From IMG/VR virus record IMGVR_UViG_3300027792_000066, positions 1 through 20,268 of that record: a stretch of 20,268 bases of DNA; one strand, written 5' to 3'. The notes under the pieces are model-generated. The model saw only the letters and a program-made list of their open reading frames with translations, did not search any database and was not told the DNA's origin. Shown here in pieces: positions 2,242-15,281 of the stretch. This DNA is from a virus. The translations under genes and the position numbers were made by a program. The first letter of the stretch is position 1; each line of letters opens with the position of its first letter.

Positions 2242-2475
2242 ATGGTAAAACCGCACACTATAAGTACACAAATGTGGCTTGAACAAGAGGACGACGATCT
2301 TGGAATGGGCGGGAGCTTTGTCGAATTTCGGGTAATGGTTGACGCAATCAACGGCTACTGGATCGAGAACGAAAGCGAAATTTGTATCGTAGTGCAAGGA
2401 ACGGTCTACTATGTCGAGAATAATGAGCCTTTGCTTTTGTTTTTATCGGAATATTTTAACCCAATGCGGTTATGA
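2242..2475 (+). CDS. Hypothetical acidic protein, 77 aa
   Basis: A 77-residue acidic protein, MVKPHTISTQMWLEQEDDD at the start and LLLFLSEYFNPMRL at the end. It begins 4 nt after the preceding stop and its TGA overlaps the ATG of the sigma-like gene (ATGA at 2472-2475). No family is recognised. The tight coupling to the sigma-like gene suggests co-expression and possibly a functional link, but nothing in the sequence shows one. Confidence 0.6.
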   Translation: MVKPHTISTQMWLEQEDDDLGMGGSFVEFRVMVDAINGYWIENESEICIVVQGTVYYVENNEPLLLFLSEYFNPMRL

Positions 2476-2900
2476 TACTCCAGGAGTTAGCCAAAAAAGA
2501 CGCCGTTTGGCGGAAGATGGCCTTCCAAATATGCAAAGACAAGGACTTGGCTGACGAGTTAGTGCAAGAGATGTATCTTAAATTGTATCAAAATACCAAT
2601 CTAATAAAAGAAGGGTATATTTATACAGTTCTAAGAAACCTATTCTATGACTATACTAAAAGTCAAAAGGATATAATAATCGACTTTAGTAATATAGAGA
2701 TTGAGGACACGGAATACATCGAGCCAGTGGATTACTTTCAACTTATGAAAGGTTTAACTTGGTACGAGCGCACAATGTTTGAGCTTTCAACTTTGGTCGG
2801 TCAGCGTGAACTCAGCCGACAAACAGGCATACACTTACAAACTATCCATCGAGTTAATAAGATGGTCAAATCTAAAATAAATGGCAAAAAGAAGAACTAA
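2472..2900 (+). CDS. Sigma-70-like RNA polymerase sigma factor
   Basis: A 142-residue protein with a sigma region-2-like segment (residues about 8-50, including DLADELVQEMYLKLY, and a TVLRNLFYDYTKSQK helix about 57-71) and a C-terminal helix-turn-helix resembling region 4 (about 105-137, GQRELSRQTGIHLQTIHRVN). It is shorter than a typical ECF sigma factor (about 170-200), and the linker between regions is acidic. Proteins of this kind precede the terminase genes in several Bacteroidetes phages. The likely role is to direct host RNA polymerase to phage promoters, for example the repeated 29-bp element before 5106, 12305 and 14973; that link is my inference. A packaging-related DNA-binding role is an alternative. 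Confidence 0.78.
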   Translation: MILQELAKKDAVWRKMAFQICKDKDLADELVQEMYLKLYQNTNLIKEGYIYTVLRNLFYDYTKSQKDIIIDFSNIEIEDTEYIEPVDYFQLMKGLTWYERTMFELSTLVGQRELSRQTGIHLQTIHRVNKMVKSKINGKKKN

Positions 2901-3460: not shown

Positions 3461-3849
3461 ATGACACTTTCGACGAAATATTAAGAGAAATAGAGCAAGG
3501 AAACTCACTTATCTCGATTTTAAGACGTAAAGAGTTTCCAAGTACTGCAACTTTTTACCAGTGGTTGGAAGCAGACGAAGACAAAGCAAAAAGATACGTG
3601 CGCGCGTGCGAAATCCGAGCTGACGTGATATTTGAGGACATCATCGACATCGCCGACCACTCCGACGAAGACCATACACCCTTTACTGGAGCGAATGTAG
3701 TGCAACGTGACCGCTTAAAAATCGACGCTCGCAAATGGATCGTTGCAAAATTGCACCCAAAGAAGTACTCGGACCGAGTGTATCAAGACATCACAACGCA
3801 CCAAGAGCAACCACTATTCCCCGATGTTTGTACGAACAACAGTAATTAA
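3436..3849 (+). CDS. terS: Terminase small subunit
   Basis: A 137-residue protein of the small terminase family, which recognises phage DNA and hands it to the large subunit for packaging. Family features visible: an N-terminal helix-turn-helix segment (about residues 8-55: ILREIEQGNSLISILRRKEFPSTATFYQWL), the ERAD-type helix (EIRADVIFEDIIDIAD, about 58-74), and the VVQRDRLKIDARKWIVAKLHPKKYSDR block (about 88-113) typical of this branch. It overlaps the large subunit gene by 26 nt, the usual terS-terL arrangement. Confidence 0.93.
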   Translation: MAYSQQQIDDTFDEILREIEQGNSLISILRRKEFPSTATFYQWLEADEDKAKRYVRACEIRADVIFEDIIDIADHSDEDHTPFTGANVVQRDRLKIDARKWIVAKLHPKKYSDRVYQDITTHQEQPLFPDVCTNNSN

Positions 3850-4987
3850 CAAGGTCTTAGGGCTAAAAAAATTCACTAAAGGAATACAAGGAGGCACCTC
3901 AGCGGGCAAGACCTTCGGAATCCTTCCAATACTTATTGACTTATGCTGCAAGACCGAACTCCTCGAGATTTCGGTTGTAGCGGAGTCGATACCACACCTC
4001 AAAAGAGGGGCAATAAAAGACTTCAAAAAAATAATGGTGTTAACAGGTCGATGGAATCCCCAACGATGGAACGCGACTGACTTCAAATACACATTTGCCA
4101 ACAACTCAGCAATCGAATTTTTTAGCGCAGAAAACGACTCAAAACTTCGAGGAGCAAGGCGTGATTATTTGTACATGAACGAGGCCAATAACATGACCTT
4201 TCACGCTTACACCGAACTCGCCTCACGTACCAAAAAAGGCGTTTATTTGGATTGGAATCCAGTCAACGAGTTTTGGTTTCACACCGATTTAATAAACGAC
4301 CACGACGTTGATTTTTTAATTGTGAACTACGAGGACAACGAGGCCTGTCCCGAATCGGCCTTAAATTTTATTCTCAAAGCAAAAGAGAAAGCCAAGACAT
4401 CAACTTTTTGGGCGAACTGGTATAACGTTTACGGCTTAGGTCAACTCGGCTCACTTGAGGGCGTTGTGTTCCCTAATTGGGAACAAATAGACACAATACC
4501 TCAAGAGGCGAAATTCTTAGGTTGTGGCCTCGATTTTGGCTACTCGAATGATCCATCCGCTTTAATTGGAGTATATGAGTACAACGGCAAAATAATAGCT
4601 GACGAAATGATTTATTCGACCTCACTTTTAAACTCGGACATCATTCGATTAATGAAGCAGGACAAACGCCTCCCGATTTGGGCCGACTCAGCCGAGCCAA
4701 AGTCAATTGAGGAGATACGTCGAGCGGGTTTTAATATCAAGCCAGTTGTAAAAGGTGCAGACTCAATAAATTTCGGGATTTCAGTATTGCAGGAGAAGGA
4801 TTTACTTGTCACAAAGCATAGCACCAACCTTATAAAAGAGCTGCGCAACTACTCTTGGGACACCGACAAAACAGGCAAGCGACTCAACCGCCCGATTGAT
4901 GACTACAATCACGCCATCGATGCGATGCGCTACTTTGCTATGATGGGCCTATCGATAAGAAAATCGCGAAAAGTGATTATAACCTAA
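3824..4987 (+). CDS. terL: Terminase large subunit (PBSX/Terminase_3-like)
   Basis: The ATP-driven packaging motor and headful or site-specific nuclease. The start is set at ATG 3824 (MFVRTTVINKVLG), giving 387 residues; an upstream in-frame ATG at 3743 would add 27 residues without family character and lie deep inside terS. ATPase part: Walker A GGTSAGKT (about 23-30), Walker B YLYMNE (about 115-120). Nuclease part with three acidic clusters: GLDFGYSNDPSA (Asp about 237), IWADSAEP (Asp about 287) and DDYNHAIDAMRYF (Asp about 365). All key residues are present, so the protein looks intact, at the short end of the family range. The next gene is separated by 118 nt that carry regulatory signals. 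Confidence 0.96.
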   Translation: MFVRTTVINKVLGLKKFTKGIQGGTSAGKTFGILPILIDLCCKTELLEISVVAESIPHLKRGAIKDFKKIMVLTGRWNPQRWNATDFKYTFANNSAIEFFSAENDSKLRGARRDYLYMNEANNMTFHAYTELASRTKKGVYLDWNPVNEFWFHTDLINDHDVDFLIVNYEDNEACPESALNFILKAKEKAKTSTFWANWYNVYGLGQLGSLEGVVFPNWEQIDTIPQEAKFLGCGLDFGYSNDPSALIGVYEYNGKIIADEMIYSTSLLNSDIIRLMKQDKRLPIWADSAEPKSIEEIRRAGFNIKPVVKGADSINFGISVLQEKDLLVTKHSTNLIKELRNYSWDTDKTGKRLNRPIDDYNHAIDAMRYFAMMGLSIRKSRKVIIT

Positions 4988-5076: not shown

Positions 5077-5105
5077 ACAAAACAACATTTTTCAGTTATA
5101 TAAGT
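5077..5105 (+). promoter_or_regulatory. 29-bp late-promoter-like element, copy 1
   Basis: The 29 bases that touch ATG 5106 match those before 14973 at 25 of 29 positions without any gap. Shared parts are ACAAAACAAC at the left (5077-5086), a T run, TCAGTTA (5092-5098) ending 7 nt before the ATG, and GT just before it. No TAnnTTTG host promoter is present in this gap. A phage-specific promoter giving a very short or absent leader is the leading idea; a translation-initiation element is the alternative. Confidence 0.6.
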
Positions 5106-5798
5106 ATGAGAGTAGTTATTCCAACAAGCTTAAGCGAGATAAAATTGTCTCAATATTCACGTTATCAAAAGGTATTAAAGGACAACCTCGATGACGAGAC
5201 CTTCGTTTGCATTCAAATGGTGGCGATATTTTGCAACCTAACTGTTGCCGATGTAATGAAAATCCCAGTTAATGATTTTACTGATATTATTGAGACTCTT
5301 GCAAAAGTATTGGATCAAAAACCGAAGCTCGTTCGCACGTTCAAAATGAATGGCGTTAACTACGGTTTCATTCCAAACTTTGATAAGATTACACTCGGCG
5401 AACACGCAACGATTGACACGCTGCTCGGAACTGACGAAAACATACCGCTATTAATGTCGGTACTTTATAGACCTATTAAACGCAAAGCGGGCGAATTTTA
5501 TGAGATTGAAGACTACGACGGCGACGAAAGCAAGGCTGATTTTTATAAGGATGTCACAATGGATATTGTGGTGGGTTCGATGCTTTTTTTTTGGACTTTA
5601 AACAAGGAATTGTTGAGCAATACCCTATTGCATTTGGAGGACAAAGCAGCGAGGGAGGGACTGAATTTGGAGGGAATTTTGGAGAACGCTGGGGCTGGTT
5701 CCAAAGCTTTGTTCGATTGTCGCGTGAACTTAGAATCCACGTTCGAGATGTGGGAAAGGAGCCTCTTCATGAATCACTCACGTTACTATCTTACCTAA
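5106..5798 (+). CDS. Tail assembly chaperone, unshifted form (gpG-like)
   Basis: A 230-residue protein starting MRVVIPTSLSEIKLSQYSRY, a start typical of Bacteroidetes siphophage tail-assembly chaperones, which bind the tape measure protein and help polymerise the tail tube around it. It has an N-terminal domain to about residue 150, then a hydrophobic helix (VVGSMLFFWTLNKELLSNTL) and a charged helix. After a run of nine T at 5584-5592 this frame continues to 5798, while a second frame (-1) is open to 5848 and carries a conserved-looking extension. The two together resemble the G / G-T pair of lambda-type phages: a short product and a less abundant frameshifted product. It follows the 29-bp late element directly and heads the tail block. 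Confidence 0.8.
   Translation: MRVVIPTSLSEIKLSQYSRYQKVLKDNLDDETFVCIQMVAIFCNLTVADVMKIPVNDFTDIIETLAKVLDQKPKLVRTFKMNGVNYGFIPNFDKITLGEHATIDTLLGTDENIPLLMSVLYRPIKRKAGEFYEIEDYDGDESKADFYKDVTMDIVVGSMLFFWTLNKELLSNTLLHLEDKAAREGLNLEGILENAGAGSKALFDCRVNLESTFEMWERSLFMNHSRYYLT
5584..5592 (+). other. Slippery run of nine T: -1 frameshift site
   Basis: In the frame of 5106 the run reads CTT-TTT-TTT-TGG, which contains the heptamer T-TTT-TTT (5585-5591), a perfect X-XXY-YYZ -1 slippery site. The -1 frame is closed upstream by TAA at 5546-5548 and has no ATG before its conserved part, so it can only be reached by a shift inside the overlap. Transcriptional slippage on the homopolymer would give the same fusion. 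Confidence 0.7.
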
Positions 5799-5848
5799 TC
5801 GATGAGTCTTTGGAGGAAGCCAAACAAATTAAAAAACAAATGAAATGA
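5591..5848 (+). CDS. Tail assembly chaperone, -1 frameshift extension (gpT-like)
   Basis: An 85-residue extension in the -1 frame, giving a fusion of about 247 residues if the shift is on the T run. The linker (EQYPIAFGGQSSEGG) leads into FGERWGWFQSFVRLSREL, then PLHESLTLLSYLIDESLEEA and a basic end. A K/R-W-G-W aromatic motif followed by an LH-x-LT-x-L helix is typical of the T-part of these chaperones, which recruits tail tube subunits. Its TGA overlaps the ATG of the next gene (ATGA at 5845-5848), whereas the unshifted frame stops 47 nt earlier; this coupling supports that ribosomes finish in the -1 frame. There is no ATG start of its own. Confidence 0.78.
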   Translation: MDFKQGIVEQYPIAFGGQSSEGGTEFGGNFGERWGWFQSFVRLSRELRIHVRDVGKEPLHESLTLLSYLIDESLEEAKQIKKQMK

Positions 5849-6309
5849 GAACATTTTACCAGGCAATAGACTACATAAAGACCACGCTCGAAAGTGCGCC
5901 GCTCCTTAACACAATCACTCAAGGCACGGACATAATCGACAACGTTAAAAAAAATATATTCCCACTCGCTCACATCAATGTACTATCGTCAGTCGTTAGT
6001 ACTGGCGTTGTGACTTTCACTTTTGAGGTAGCGGTGGTTGACATTCGCAATATGTCAAAGGTGCAAATCAAGGACAAATTTTTAGGCAACGACAACGAGC
6101 TTGACAACCTAAACACCTGCCACGCGATACTCAACTACATGATCACAAAAATGCAGCTCAGACGAAACGAGAACGACATCGAACTTTTGAACGAGCCTAA
6201 TTTGCAGCCTATATTTATGGCGTTCACAAATGCGCTCGATGGTTGGAAGTGTGACATTGAATTAAGCGTTCCGAACGACCAATTTTCAGTTTGCTGCGAT
6301 GGAAACTAA
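5845..6309 (+). CDS. Putative tail terminator / tail completion protein
   Basis: A 154-residue protein beginning MRTFYQAIDYIKTTL. Its layout (an N-terminal helix, a beta-rich centre FTFEVAVVDIRNMS, a long helix LDNLNTCHAILNYMITKMQL, then GWKCDIELSVPN at the end) resembles the small tail-terminator or minor tail proteins of Bacteroidetes siphophages, which cap the tail tube at the head side. No exact family can be named from sequence alone. It sits between the chaperone (4-nt overlap) and an HK97-gp10-like gene (11-nt overlap), the usual neighbourhood of such proteins. Confidence 0.55.
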   Translation: MRTFYQAIDYIKTTLESAPLLNTITQGTDIIDNVKKNIFPLAHINVLSSVVSTGVVTFTFEVAVVDIRNMSKVQIKDKFLGNDNELDNLNTCHAILNYMITKMQLRRNENDIELLNEPNLQPIFMAFTNALDGWKCDIELSVPNDQFSVCCDGN

Positions 6310-6829
6310 AATAGTTCAGCAGGCCCTTAACGAATTTGGCGCGTCAGTTGTAGAGCGAGCGCAAGCCAATTTAAAACGAGGGGGTAAATATGGCACCCAC
6401 AACGCAAGCGGCAACCTATCGAGGTCGCTCACGTTCAAAACAAAGATAAATCCAAACTCGTTGGAGTTTGATTTCTTTGCCGAGTCTTACTGGAAGCTAT
6501 TGGATTATGGAACAACAGGAAGCCAATCGAGTAGAAAGGCTCCTCAATCGCCATACAAGGCCAATGCGTCAACAGGTGCGATTGATAAGTGGGTGGTTAG
6601 AAAGGGATTGAAAGGCACCCGAAGCGCGAGCGGTCAATTTACAAGCCGTAAATCGTTGGTCGCAGCGATAACACGCTCGATAAATAAAACAGGAACACCC
6701 GAGACTAAATTTTTCCGCTCGGCATTTGATTTAGAATACCAAAACTTTGACCAAGTTATCGCCGAAAAATACGGCTTAGACTTAGAATCATTTTTAAAAT
6801 ACGTAGTAAATGAAAATATTAAACGTTAG
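6299..6829 (+). CDS. HK97 gp10-like head-tail/tail completion protein
   Basis: A 176-residue basic protein. Recognised features of the HK97-gp10-like group: an N-terminal helix (ALNEFGASVVERAQANL), an ASGNLSRSLTF turn at about residues 36-46, a beta hairpin (LEFDFFAESYWKLLDYGTTG) with the YW-LLDYG motif, then RKAPQSPY and a C-terminal helix. Such proteins join the connector to the tail. The family is normally 110-160 residues, so this one is somewhat long. It overlaps its neighbours by 11 and 20 nt. Confidence 0.7.
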   Translation: METKIVQQALNEFGASVVERAQANLKRGGKYGTHNASGNLSRSLTFKTKINPNSLEFDFFAESYWKLLDYGTTGSQSSRKAPQSPYKANASTGAIDKWVVRKGLKGTRSASGQFTSRKSLVAAITRSINKTGTPETKFFRSAFDLEYQNFDQVIAEKYGLDLESFLKYVVNENIKR

Positions 6830-10226: not shown

Positions 10227-10356
10227 CAACATACTACAAATGCTCCAAATCGCGGAGCAATACGAGAACAATGAGACGATATCTATTGCCAAGGGGCGAT
10301 ACGAATACACGCGCAACTATTTACAACTATTTAAAAAGGCAATCAAATGGCAATAG
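10219..10356 (+). CDS. Small protein between tail protein and tape measure, 45 aa
   Basis: A 45-residue frame starting MLNNILQMLQIAEQYEN, followed by IAKGRYEYTRNYLQLFKKA. The ATG lies inside the last codons of the preceding gene (8-nt overlap) and its TAG overlaps the tape measure start by 10 nt, so it fills the only gap in the tail block. Two amphipathic helices are likely. I do not recognise the family. The position just ahead of the tape measure would suit a small partner of it, but this is a guess. Too small for most gene finders. Confidence 0.6.
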   Translation: MLNNILQMLQIAEQYENNETISIAKGRYEYTRNYLQLFKKAIKWQ

Positions 10357-12203
10357 AGAAGGTAATTGATATAAAAGTACAAGGCAACGTCAACGAGGCG
10401 GTTGGCTCTTTACGCTCACAACTTAGAGCAGCGCAACAAGAGGTTGCTGCGTTGTCCGATAAATTTGGAGCAACGTCAGCCGAAGCGGTTAACGCTGCAA
10501 AAAGAGCGGGAGAACTTAAAGACCGAATCGGAGATGCTAAGGCGTTGACTGACGCGTTCAATCCCGACGCTAAATTTAAGGCTTTGACCTCGTCTTTGTC
10601 GGGTGTTGCCGCTGGCTTCTCAGCGTATCAAGGTGCGCTTAATTTGGCAGGTGTTGAAAATAAAAACTTAGAGGAGTCGATTTTAAAAGTGCAAAGCGCA
10701 ATGGCTTTGTCACAAGGATTGCAAGCGTTAGGCGAAAGCCGCGACTCATTTAAGCAACTCAAGGCCGTTGCAACCGACGCACTCAAAGGAATCAAAGCGG
10801 GAATTGGTGCAACGGGTATCGGTTTACTTGTCGTTGCTTTGGGAACTATTGCAGCGAATTGGGAGGATATTGTGAGCGCGGCAAAAGAGGCGTTTCCTGC
10901 ACTTAATAACGTTGGTAATGTTTTCAACAAATTAAAGGAGTACGCATTTGGGGCGGGTAATGTAATTAAGAATTATATCTTAATGCCATTCAAAGCGTTG
11001 GGCCAATTAATTGCGGGCGATTTTAAAGGCGCAATCGAGGAGATTAAAAAAGGCTTTGATGTCGTTGGAAACTACGAGGCAGGCGCAGCCAAAGAACGTC
11101 AAAACCAAAGAGACGAAGCGGCAGCCGAGCAGTTGGCTAAATTGGTAAAAGACAACGAAAACCGAATAGCAGTTTTAAAAGCAAGCGGCAAAGACACGTA
11201 CGCCTTAGAGCTTGAAAATTTAAAAAATAAACAAAAGCTATACAAAGACGATCAAGAGAAACTTGACCAAGCCTTGCAAGACGAGCGCGTTTTGCGAGCC
11301 ACACACGGCAAACAATTAAGCGACGCTGAAGCGGCATTAAATAAAAAATTAGCTGAGGAGCGATTTGCAGCAAGACAAAAAGAGGCTGAGGAGTTGGCTG
11401 AATTAGCAAAGCAAAAAGCCGAGAGAATACAAGAGGATTTTGACAATTTGTACAAAGCAAATCAAGACGCTCAAAAAGTAGTAATGGAGTCGACAATGAC
11501 TCAGCAAGAGATTGAACTCGCGGCAATTGATAAAAAATATCAAGACCAAATTGCACTCGCAACAAAATTAGGTCAAGACACTACAACTTTGACCGATGCA
11601 TTTGCAGTAGAGCGCACCGCAGTAATGCAAAAGTACGCAAGCGAGGAAGATAGAATTAGAGAGGAACAAAAGCAAAAAGACGAAAAAGCCGCAGAGGACA
11701 CAAAAATACGCGAGCGAGCAGTCGCAAACGCAAAGCTCGACATCGCTCAAAATACACTTGCATTAATTGGGGAGATAGCGGGCAAAGGCTCAAAAGTAGG
11801 TAAAGCGTTAGCGTTGGCGCAAGCTACAATCAGCGGATATCAAGGGGTGCAAAATGCCTATACAACTGCTCAAGCCTCGCCAATTACTATTGGATTTCCT
11901 GCATATCCTTACATTCAAGCGGGACTTGCTGGAGCCTTCTCCTTATTGCAAATTAAGAAAATTATGTCAACCGATCCAAGTGGCTCAAGTGCGCCAAACT
12001 TAGGAGGCGGAGCAGGCGGAGCAGGTGGCGGAGCAACTCCTCCATCGTTCAACGTCGTTGGCTCAACAGGTGTCAACCAATTAGCGGGCGCAATAGGCAA
12101 TCGTGAGGCGGCACCAGTGCAAGCGTATGTCGTTGCTAATAATGTGACAACGGCCCAAAGTTTAGACCGCAATATCATTCAAAGTGCAACACTTGGGGGG
12201 TAA
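10347..12203 (+). CDS. Tail tape measure protein
   Basis: A 618-residue protein that would set tail length and line the inside of the tail tube. The start MAIEKVIDIKVQGNVNEAVGSL is typical of tape measures (a short strand, then long helices). A hydrophobic segment lies at about residues 152-171 (GIGATGIGLLVVALGTIAA), followed by long charged, heptad-like helices rich in Lys, Glu, Gln and Ala (about 240-465) and a Gly-rich stretch near 553-572. Tape measures scale at roughly 0.15 nm per residue, so a tail of around 90 nm would be expected, a rough estimate. The gene ends the tail block; the next gene is about 100 nt away behind regulatory signals. Confidence 0.88.
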   Translation: MAIEKVIDIKVQGNVNEAVGSLRSQLRAAQQEVAALSDKFGATSAEAVNAAKRAGELKDRIGDAKALTDAFNPDAKFKALTSSLSGVAAGFSAYQGALNLAGVENKNLEESILKVQSAMALSQGLQALGESRDSFKQLKAVATDALKGIKAGIGATGIGLLVVALGTIAANWEDIVSAAKEAFPALNNVGNVFNKLKEYAFGAGNVIKNYILMPFKALGQLIAGDFKGAIEEIKKGFDVVGNYEAGAAKERQNQRDEAAAEQLAKLVKDNENRIAVLKASGKDTYALELENLKNKQKLYKDDQEKLDQALQDERVLRATHGKQLSDAEAALNKKLAEERFAARQKEAEELAELAKQKAERIQEDFDNLYKANQDAQKVVMESTMTQQEIELAAIDKKYQDQIALATKLGQDTTTLTDAFAVERTAVMQKYASEEDRIREEQKQKDEKAAEDTKIRERAVANAKLDIAQNTLALIGEIAGKGSKVGKALALAQATISGYQGVQNAYTTAQASPITIGFPAYPYIQAGLAGAFSLLQIKKIMSTDPSGSSAPNLGGGAGGAGGGATPPSFNVVGSTGVNQLAGAIGNREAAPVQAYVVANNVTTAQSLDRNIIQSATLGG

Positions 12204-12275: not shown

Positions 12276-12304
12276 ACAAACAATTAAAAATCAGTTATTA
12301 GGGT
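12276..12304 (+). promoter_or_regulatory. 29-bp late-promoter-like element, copy 2
   Basis: These 29 bases touch ATG 12305 and align without gaps with copies 1 and 3: ACAAA at the left, TCAGTTA at 12291-12297 ending 7 nt before the ATG, and GT just before it. The middle is A-rich rather than T-rich, so it is the most divergent copy. The second palindrome ends exactly 19 nt before it, the same spacing as at copy 1. Confidence 0.55.
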
Positions 12305-13408
12305 ATGGACACTTACAAAGTAATGTTTAATGAGGAAGATAACGAGGGCGTTTATGCCGTTTCACTCGTATCCGATCCTGCAATTGGGGTGCAGTTTATC
12401 ACTTTGTCACAACAAAAAGAAATACAACTCGCAACCATAAACGAGGAGCAGCGTATTTTATTAGGCGCGGTATTAATACCAAACCAACCAATCTACCGCA
12501 ACCAAGACGGCCACGAGTTTAACATCGTATTCCCAGCGGAAACGATTAAGCAAGTGCAACAAAATTTCAGTCGTCAAGGATATCAGAACAACTCAACGAT
12601 TGAGCATTCTGGTACACAAATCGAGGATGTGACTTTTGTTGAGACTTGGATAAAGGAAGACGAGGTACACGATAAGTCGGTACACTACGGATTTAACGAG
12701 CCAGTAGGAACGTGGTTCGCTGCAATGAAAGTGAACAACGATGAGATTTGGAATGACTACGTTAAGACAGGCAAAGTCAAAGGCTTCTCAATTGATGGGG
12801 TTTTTGACATGGAGAAAGTAAATTTAAAAAGTGAATATAGTATGAATTTAAATGAAATCGTTAACGCGATAAAAGACGGTTTCGCTTCGGTAAAATTATC
12901 GAACGAGACTGAGCAAGTGGAAGTGACTATGTCGACCATGATGCTCAAAGATGGTGTTACCGTTTTGGAAGCTGAATCATTTGACGCTGGCATGCCTGTG
13001 TTTATTGTAGCTGAAAACGGAGACAAAGTTCCTGCTCCAATCGGAGAGCATGAGCTTGAGGATGGTAGAATTTTGGTAATTACCGAGGAAGGTATGATCG
13101 CCGAAATTAAAGAAATGGAGGCTGATGCCGAAGTTGAAGTGACTGTTGAAGCTGACGTTGAAATGTCCAAAGAGGATCAATTCGCTGAGTTAGTAAAATC
13201 AATCGTTACATCAATGAGCGTTGAAGTAGCCAAACAAATCGAAGCGGTAAGAACTGAGTTAAGCTCGCAAATCGCTGAGGTAAAAACTTCTCAAGTTGAG
13301 GTGAAAGCATCAACAAAAGCGAAACCCGAAGTAAAAGAGGTTTCAAATTCAAACGTGAAATTAACACGATCACAAAAAATCCAAAATAATCTTAAAAACT
13401 TAAATTAA
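12305..13408 (+). CDS. Prohead protease (XkdF-like, S78_2) fused to a scaffold-like C-terminus
   Basis: A 367-residue protein that would cleave scaffold and capsid proteins during head maturation. The N-terminus has the VYAVSLVSDPAI motif (residues 16-27) common to this family, then LLGAVLIPNQPIYR (52-65), the likely catalytic His101 in NSTIEHSG and Ser162 in VKGFSIDG; the acidic third residue is not certain. From about 213 to 272 a compact beta-rich insert (MLKDGVTVLEAESF, MPVFIVAENGDK, HELEDGRILVITEEGMIAEIKE) is seen in several Bacteroidetes prohead proteins. The C-terminus (about 285-367) is a long charged helix, suited to scaffolding, with a basic end. The capsid gene follows after 3 nt. 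The 29-bp late element lies directly in front of the ATG. Confidence 0.87.
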   Translation: MDTYKVMFNEEDNEGVYAVSLVSDPAIGVQFITLSQQKEIQLATINEEQRILLGAVLIPNQPIYRNQDGHEFNIVFPAETIKQVQQNFSRQGYQNNSTIEHSGTQIEDVTFVETWIKEDEVHDKSVHYGFNEPVGTWFAAMKVNNDEIWNDYVKTGKVKGFSIDGVFDMEKVNLKSEYSMNLNEIVNAIKDGFASVKLSNETEQVEVTMSTMMLKDGVTVLEAESFDAGMPVFIVAENGDKVPAPIGEHELEDGRILVITEEGMIAEIKEMEADAEVEVTVEADVEMSKEDQFAELVKSIVTSMSVEVAKQIEAVRTELSSQIAEVKTSQVEVKASTKAKPEVKEVSNSNVKLTRSQKIQNNLKNLN

Positions 13409-14943: not shown

Positions 14944-14972
14944 ACAAAACAACTTTTTTCAGTTAATATAGT
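14944..14972 (+). promoter_or_regulatory. 29-bp late-promoter-like element, copy 3
   Basis: The 29 bases touching ATG 14973: ACAAAACAAC at 14944-14953, six T, CAGTTA at 14960-14965, ending 7 nt before the ATG, and AGT in front of it. It agrees with copy 1 at 25 of 29 positions. It lies directly after a strong terminator, where a promoter is required if the portal unit is to be transcribed at high level. No TCAATT palindrome lies upstream here. Confidence 0.62.
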
Positions 14973-15281
14973 ATGTGGATATTCAATTTAACTGCGCCTT
15001 ATCAATTCCGATGCATTCCAAGAGGCTACAATAGTGGCGAAATCACGTTTTTATTGCGTGATGAAACGCGAGACATCACTCACGAAATTGATGTAACAGG
15101 CGTATATTACCAAAACAACGTTTTAGTGTTAGTATTTGACGAGCCAATTATGAAAGAGGGCCAATCGTTTGAGGTTACAATCAACGAAAATGATGAATTA
15201 ATTTATAGAGGCAAGGCCTACGCAACGGCTCAGACTGACTTAGAGAATTTTGAACTCAATAAAGGAGTTTTAAAAGTATAA
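14973..15281 (+). CDS. Small beta-rich structural-type protein, 102 aa
   Basis: A 102-residue beta-rich protein starting MWIFNLTAPYQFRCIPRGYN. The layout (an LRDE loop, a VYYQNNVLVLVFDEPIMKEGQSFEVTI centre and a YRGKAYATAQTD end) resembles a small protein encoded just before the portal in Bacteroidetes phages; its function is unknown. It is directly preceded by the third 29-bp element and is the first gene of the portal unit, 4 nt before the portal gene. It may decorate the head or connector (inference from position). Confidence 0.65.
   Translation: MWIFNLTAPYQFRCIPRGYNSGEITFLLRDETRDITHEIDVTGVYYQNNVLVLVFDEPIMKEGQSFEVTINENDELIYRGKAYATAQTDLENFELNKGVLKV

Follow-up and report, generated by a model that had tools for sequence, protein, structure and literature searches.

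Transcriptional slippage as a candidate route to a G-T fusion at a conserved T9-T10 run in a group of phages

Described recoded pairs and the present locus

The ratio of G to G-T controls phage tail assembly, and the recoding behind it is the textbook phage case of ribosomal frameshifting. In the lambda gpG/gpGT pair, as in HK97, P2 (E/E') and SPP1 (17.5/17.5*), a short product and its -1 extension are encoded across overlapping frames rather than in one open frame, the extension is small and helical, and tail genes follow. The lambda G:GT ratio is near 30:1 (PMC5009743). Lambda has a heptamer as its slip site, and a UUUUUUC site has been predicted for SPP1 gene 17.5/17.5* (PMC6316719); recoded G/G-T pairs and the predicted SPP1 U heptamer are therefore established ground. 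Frames can also be joined in the RNA. The frames of Shigella mxiE are fused by one nucleotide inserted at a U run, and transcriptional slippage in Thermus dnaX occurs at nine A (PMC1088944).

The locus described here lies in a window of viral DNA (20,268 nucleotides, the whole stretch analysed, about 20 kb) that encodes, in order, a cytosine methylase, the small terminase subunit, the large terminase, tail genes, a tape measure, a protease, a probable capsid protein and a portal. The G-like gene (5106-5798, plus strand, as are all features below unless stated) codes for 230 amino acids. A run of nine T at 5584-5592, the sole T run longer than six in the window, is read in frame 0 as ATG CTT TTT TTT TGG, and at this run the gene overlaps the -1 frame. 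The first ~160 residues would be common to both products, while the last ~67 codons of frame 0 overlap the -1 frame. From 5591 to 5848 the -1 frame adds 85 codons and a stop, encoding a gpT-like domain with a C-terminal helix and an F-x3-[KR]WGW[YF] motif that is conserved among relatives. An earlier note, made from the sequence alone, had located T_TTT_TTT at 5585-5591 in the phase of the gene at 5106, a -1 frame open from 5549 to 5848, and an overlap between the -1 stop and the next start. Coordinates and phase are correct, and the TGA at 5846-5848 does overlap the ATG at 5845 (ATGA). The same note described the -1 frame as free of ATG. That description is accurate for its head, where the earliest codon able to start translation in bacteria is TTG at 5591, but an ATG does occur at the second-last codon, too late to start the domain.

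The pair shares with the lambda group a short product with a -1 extension, a small helical extension and tail genes downstream. Compared with lambda and its kin, the slip site is a homopolymer held strictly to T9-T10 where lambda has a heptamer, frame 0 continues for ~67 codons beyond it, and the gene adjoins the terminase, not the tape measure; the sequences are only marginally similar. SPP1 17.5/17.5* is alike in having a U-run heptamer in the same kind of gene pair, but its site is six U followed by C, whereas the run here is nine or ten U and never interrupted. With mxiE and dnaX the locus shares a junction run of A or T, and in mxiE the insertion likewise joins two overlapping frames into a long product. 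Those are cellular genes, whereas this is a gene of a phage structural module for which slippage at the RNA level is a prediction.

Counterparts in isolated phages are gp40-gp41 of the Nonlabens phages P12024L and P12024S (JQ823123, JQ823122), a homologous pair that is 30% identical. At the corresponding position P12024L has CTT TTT TTT TAT, and its -1 extension ends in the WGW domain, although its record annotates each part as a hypothetical protein of its own and its frame 0 ends sooner than here. For annotation, PHROG 32199 (unknown function) should be treated together with its -1 extension as one recoded gene, both in P12024L and in many metagenomic phages. Flavobacterium phage 6H gp10 (locus L288, 10352-10927, minus strand) is a distant Foldseek match of the G-like protein and carries TGT TTT TTC TAT at a similar site; it was dropped as a supporting case because its -1 frame stops at once. 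An open frame follows it.

What is new is that ~280 relatives retain a run of strictly nine or ten T while both frames code, and that this opens a testable case for polymerase slippage. The retention of the nine-T cassette across the group points to RNA polymerase as a level at which this protein ratio could be set. That a large and old phage group, probably of Bacteroidota, sets its G:GT ratio by polymerase slippage on T9-T10 instead of ribosomal frameshifting is a proposition to which we give an even chance. If it is true, we know of no earlier programmed transcriptional slippage in phage tail assembly, and the literature searched, most subscription journals being outside it, yielded no account of such slippage at a tail-chaperone gene.

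Conservation of the run and coding in both frames

Relatives were collected by protein and profile scans of IMG/VR, which gave more than 280 loci. The profile-scan patterns left out the slip site; in the first scan, one of six patterns included it, at the amino-acid level only. Alignment to relatives, a check proposed in the earlier note, returned T9 or T10 at the junction in every relative reaching the site (118 of 118, 80 of 80 and 84 of 84). An automatic recount of 277 cases gave 267 T9 and 10 T10, and among the ~280 relatives (28-97% identical) whose contig reaches the site none had a run of eight or fewer or of eleven or more. When the ~280 were clustered at 80% nucleotide identity, all 99 clusters carried T9 or T10; simply multiplying the probabilities of the clusters would give 10^-75, a figure set aside because it disregards shared ancestry. 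Across 56 non-redundant close relatives, the 12 nt over the site (477-489 from the gene start) are invariant, and third positions near it differ in ~65% of pairs. A scan of bacterial genomes for prophages yielded only two MAG contigs, one Bacteroidetes and one Flavobacteriales, both with T9; with P12024L, these indicate that the host phylum of the group is probably Bacteroidota.

Both frames are open past the run in all 99 clusters and in every complete sequence, frame 0 for 25-90 codons and the -1 frame for 79-93. With the other frame's protein and codon usage held fixed, each frame would be free of stops across the overlap by chance with a probability of 0.5-0.8% per sequence, and the +1 frame is interrupted by three or more stops in every sequence. 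Codon-position variability in the 56 close relatives changes at the run. Before the site the third positions of frame 0 are most variable (0.44 vs 0.15 and 0.09), and after it the most variable position is the second of frame 0, equivalent to codon position three of the -1 frame (0.23 vs 0.10 and 0.20). Translations of the overlap in the same relatives are 79% identical for the -1 frame and 70% identical for frame 0. Given the conserved run, the two open frames and the switch of variability to the -1 frame after the run, it is close to certain, on evolutionary grounds, that programmed recoding yields a short G and a G-T fusion. Judged from sequence, the locus is thus one of programmed recoding and not decay. 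Frame 0 after the site (5591-5798, ~67 codons) has an end that is nearly fixed within the close family, and therefore the non-shifted product would carry an extra tail encoded in the overlap.

Homopolymers are prone to errors and mutation, and the P12024L record annotates two genes, so the junction might be read as a mutation, a pseudogene or a homopolymer sequencing error, or the -1 part as a separate gene starting from TTG 5591. We consider these readings extremely improbable. An error or mutation is excluded by the presence of the same run, at equal length, in independent metagenomes and in an isolated phage, and a pseudogene would sit poorly with constraint on both frames. The earlier note had held that relatives encoding both parts in one frame without a slippery run would count against recoding; no such single-frame fusion was found among the relatives reaching the junction, which keep the run and keep the parts in different frames, so that its G/G-T layout with a shift in the -1 direction holds. 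An internal start for the -1 part was likewise rejected, since no conserved ATG was found at its head among the relatives.

Slippage by the polymerase or by the ribosome

Under programmed recoding, most reading of the G-like gene would give the 230-aa G-like protein, and a minority would change frame by -1 at the T run to give a ~247-aa G-T fusion with the WGW domain at its end. Two levels of slippage could account for the switch, and we favour transcriptional slippage over ribosomal -1 frameshifting. RNA polymerase would slip on T9 and add one U, and the few percent of mRNAs carrying U10 would be read straight into the -1 frame, as in Shigella mxiE. This reading we put at somewhat better than even. 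That a fusion protein is made, that the slippage is transcriptional and that the pair acts as a chaperone are all points we infer from the sequence. The earlier note had raised transcriptional slippage as a possibility; the strict length of nine to ten points that way, but does not settle the level.

Sites of the mxiE type have a conserved A or T run of about nine or more at a frame junction, and such a run is present here; they also yield mRNAs of mixed sequence, some with an inserted U. E. coli RNA polymerase makes insertions at T7/8 with a frequency of 5-10% (PMC6260861), which is near the lambda G:GT ratio of 30:1 and fits transcriptional slippage. Many bacterial genomes avoid slippage-prone runs at length nine (PMC1088944). 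In the other genes of these phages, sense-strand T runs are avoided (T7, 11 seen vs 25 expected; at least nine T, 0 vs 4.4), A runs less so, an avoidance that would follow equally from ribosomal or replication slippage. Slipping on T9 by the RNA polymerase of these hosts is an assumption of the polymerase reading.

Under the ribosomal reading, the pair of Phe-tRNAs on T_TTT_TTT (5585-5591) would move back by one base, the lambda G/GT mechanism applied to a U heptamer, and the ribosome would go on in the -1 frame. A -1 ribosomal site has the form X_XXY_YYZ in the phase of frame 0, and T_TTT_TTT is in phase at every site in every relative, a fact that weighs for the ribosome and against any exclusive claim for the polymerase. 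UUU UUU is also a natural best site for slippage by a single Phe-tRNA. In the literature examined, the tail-chaperone recoding described is all ribosomal (PMC5009743), and the prediction of UUUUUUC for the equivalent gene pair of SPP1 (PMC6316719) adds to this precedent. We nonetheless regard ribosomal shifting as the less likely of the two, with a probability somewhat below even, on three grounds. Seven T suffice for a ribosomal heptamer, yet nine or ten are always kept. The variant T_TTT_TTC is absent from the ~280 relatives even though TTC makes up 23% of the Phe codons of these genes. The third ground is that the stimulators common, but not universal, at ribosomal sites are not conserved: a pseudoknot or stem-loop was considered because the window alone gives a downstream folding z of -2.1, and was dropped because the mean over the 99 clusters is -0.18, and SD-like sequences upstream are not enriched over the control in those clusters. 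Ribosomes of Bacteroidia make no use of SD signals (PMC9976891), and the ribosomes of the likely hosts would accordingly ignore Shine-Dalgarno stimulators.

The run length requires care in interpretation. In the common phase, amino-acid constraint (V, L or I before, an aromatic residue after) could account for the two extra T's. On the side of the polymerase, the codon that follows the pair of Phe codons can encode W, Y, S, F or L, whose codons have only a first T in common. As the amino acids in that phase make T7 imply T9, only about six slid contexts discriminate between the levels. In some relatives the run lies one codon upstream, as GTT TTT TTT TTC (L165 and L220) or ATT TTT TTT TTG (L256 and L263); in others the run has slid or its flank has changed, as in ATA TTT TTT TTT T (L222 and L274) and GGT TTT TTT TTG, where glycine replaces V/L/I (L203 and L285). 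At all of these the run is still 9-10 T though a ribosomal heptamer needs seven. With flanks random at 30% T, we estimate that at least two extra T would occur in about 1 in 5 per case, an estimate weakened by shared ancestry. The strict length of nine to ten, at the slid sites as well, favours polymerase slippage.

Both levels may contribute, the run being kept long for polymerase slippage while ribosomal shifting takes place as well, a reading that overlaps the other two. One sequence meets both requirements in every relative, but no observation demands two mechanisms, and we think joint action unlikely.

Role of the pair and its genomic surroundings

The earlier note called this a tail chaperone gene. 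The arrangement and synteny make that plausible, but sequence matches are weak (Phage_TAC_7, E 0.004; PHROG 166, E 3e-5) and structural comparison with the PDB was uninformative. All 69 members of the G-like family that were scanned belong to PHROG 32199, of unknown function. Pfam Phage_TAC_7 is the family matched most often, weakly, in 8 of 32 homologues (best E 0.005) and in 4 of 69 (best E 0.004); it was not matched by the window's own protein or by another set of ten homologues. PHROG 166, annotated 'tail protein', matches three homologues, the 3e-5 above being the best. Against Pfam, the -1 part gave nothing but scattered chance-level matches. A sequence search of solved structures in the PDB returned no match, fold comparison with the PDB gave only helical-bundle noise (Z 5 or less), and Foldseek against BFVD returned mainly unnamed phage proteins, so that structural searches were uninformative on function. 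AlphaFold predicts a mixed alpha/beta, largely helical G-like protein (pLDDT 82) and a helical T domain (pLDDT 77).

The large terminase gene (3743-4987; Terminase_3C) lies directly upstream of the G-like gene. Downstream follow a PHROG 30964 gene (5845-6309), in the same order in relatives, and an HK97 gp10-like or neck-tail completion gene (6299-6829; PHROG 29822 and PHROG 5) with conserved synteny. This order, terminase before and PHROG 30964 with the HK97 gp10-like/neck gene after, is kept in distant relatives. G/G-T pairs are joined across overlapping frames by a conserved recoding site, the long product being the N-terminal part plus the extension, and the frames and codon pattern here conform to this. 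Such pairs typically lie just upstream of the tape-measure gene, a position we take as typical rather than strictly defining; here the tape measure (10347-12203; PHROG 9483 and 1538) is in the same direction with four genes and 4.5 kb between. In lambda-type pairs the fusion is made at a few percent, is needed for tails and does not occur in virions. From arrangement, synteny and the weak profile matches, the pair is probably a tail-assembly chaperone pair working like lambda G/GT, without homology being claimed as proven. By analogy with lambda gpG, G would most likely coat the tape-measure protein, and by analogy with gpGT, T would most likely recruit tail-tube subunits.

Recoding could be real and the pair serve some other role in head-tail assembly, as the lack of a strong family match, the mainly unnamed proteins returned by Foldseek against BFVD and the place of the gene, next to the terminase and 4.5 kb from the tape measure, would allow. 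Neck and tail genes as neighbours, the matches to Phage_TAC_7 and PHROG 166, and a G/G-T layout with overlapping frames, the hallmark of tail-chaperone pairs, make such a role improbable.

A CAGTTATATnnGTATG-like motif occurs on the plus strand at 5093-5108, 12292-12307 and 14960-14975, in each case with the start ATG of a structural gene (5106, 12305 and 14973) as its last three letters. The window holds six matches with at most three mismatches, a number never reached in shuffles (mean 1.8), and a longer repeat, 5077-5108 resembling 14944-14975, includes the motif. Close relatives also have it directly ahead of the G gene, and in ~26 of 95 clusters a shortened version precedes the ATG by 12 nt. 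The motif looks like a phage late promoter that would give nearly leaderless mRNAs. At 2472-2900 (plus strand), the window encodes a phage protein with Sigma70 region 2 (E 2e-6), with a counterpart in P12024L, and this predicted protein might direct the host RNA polymerase to the CAGTTATATnnGTATG-like motif.
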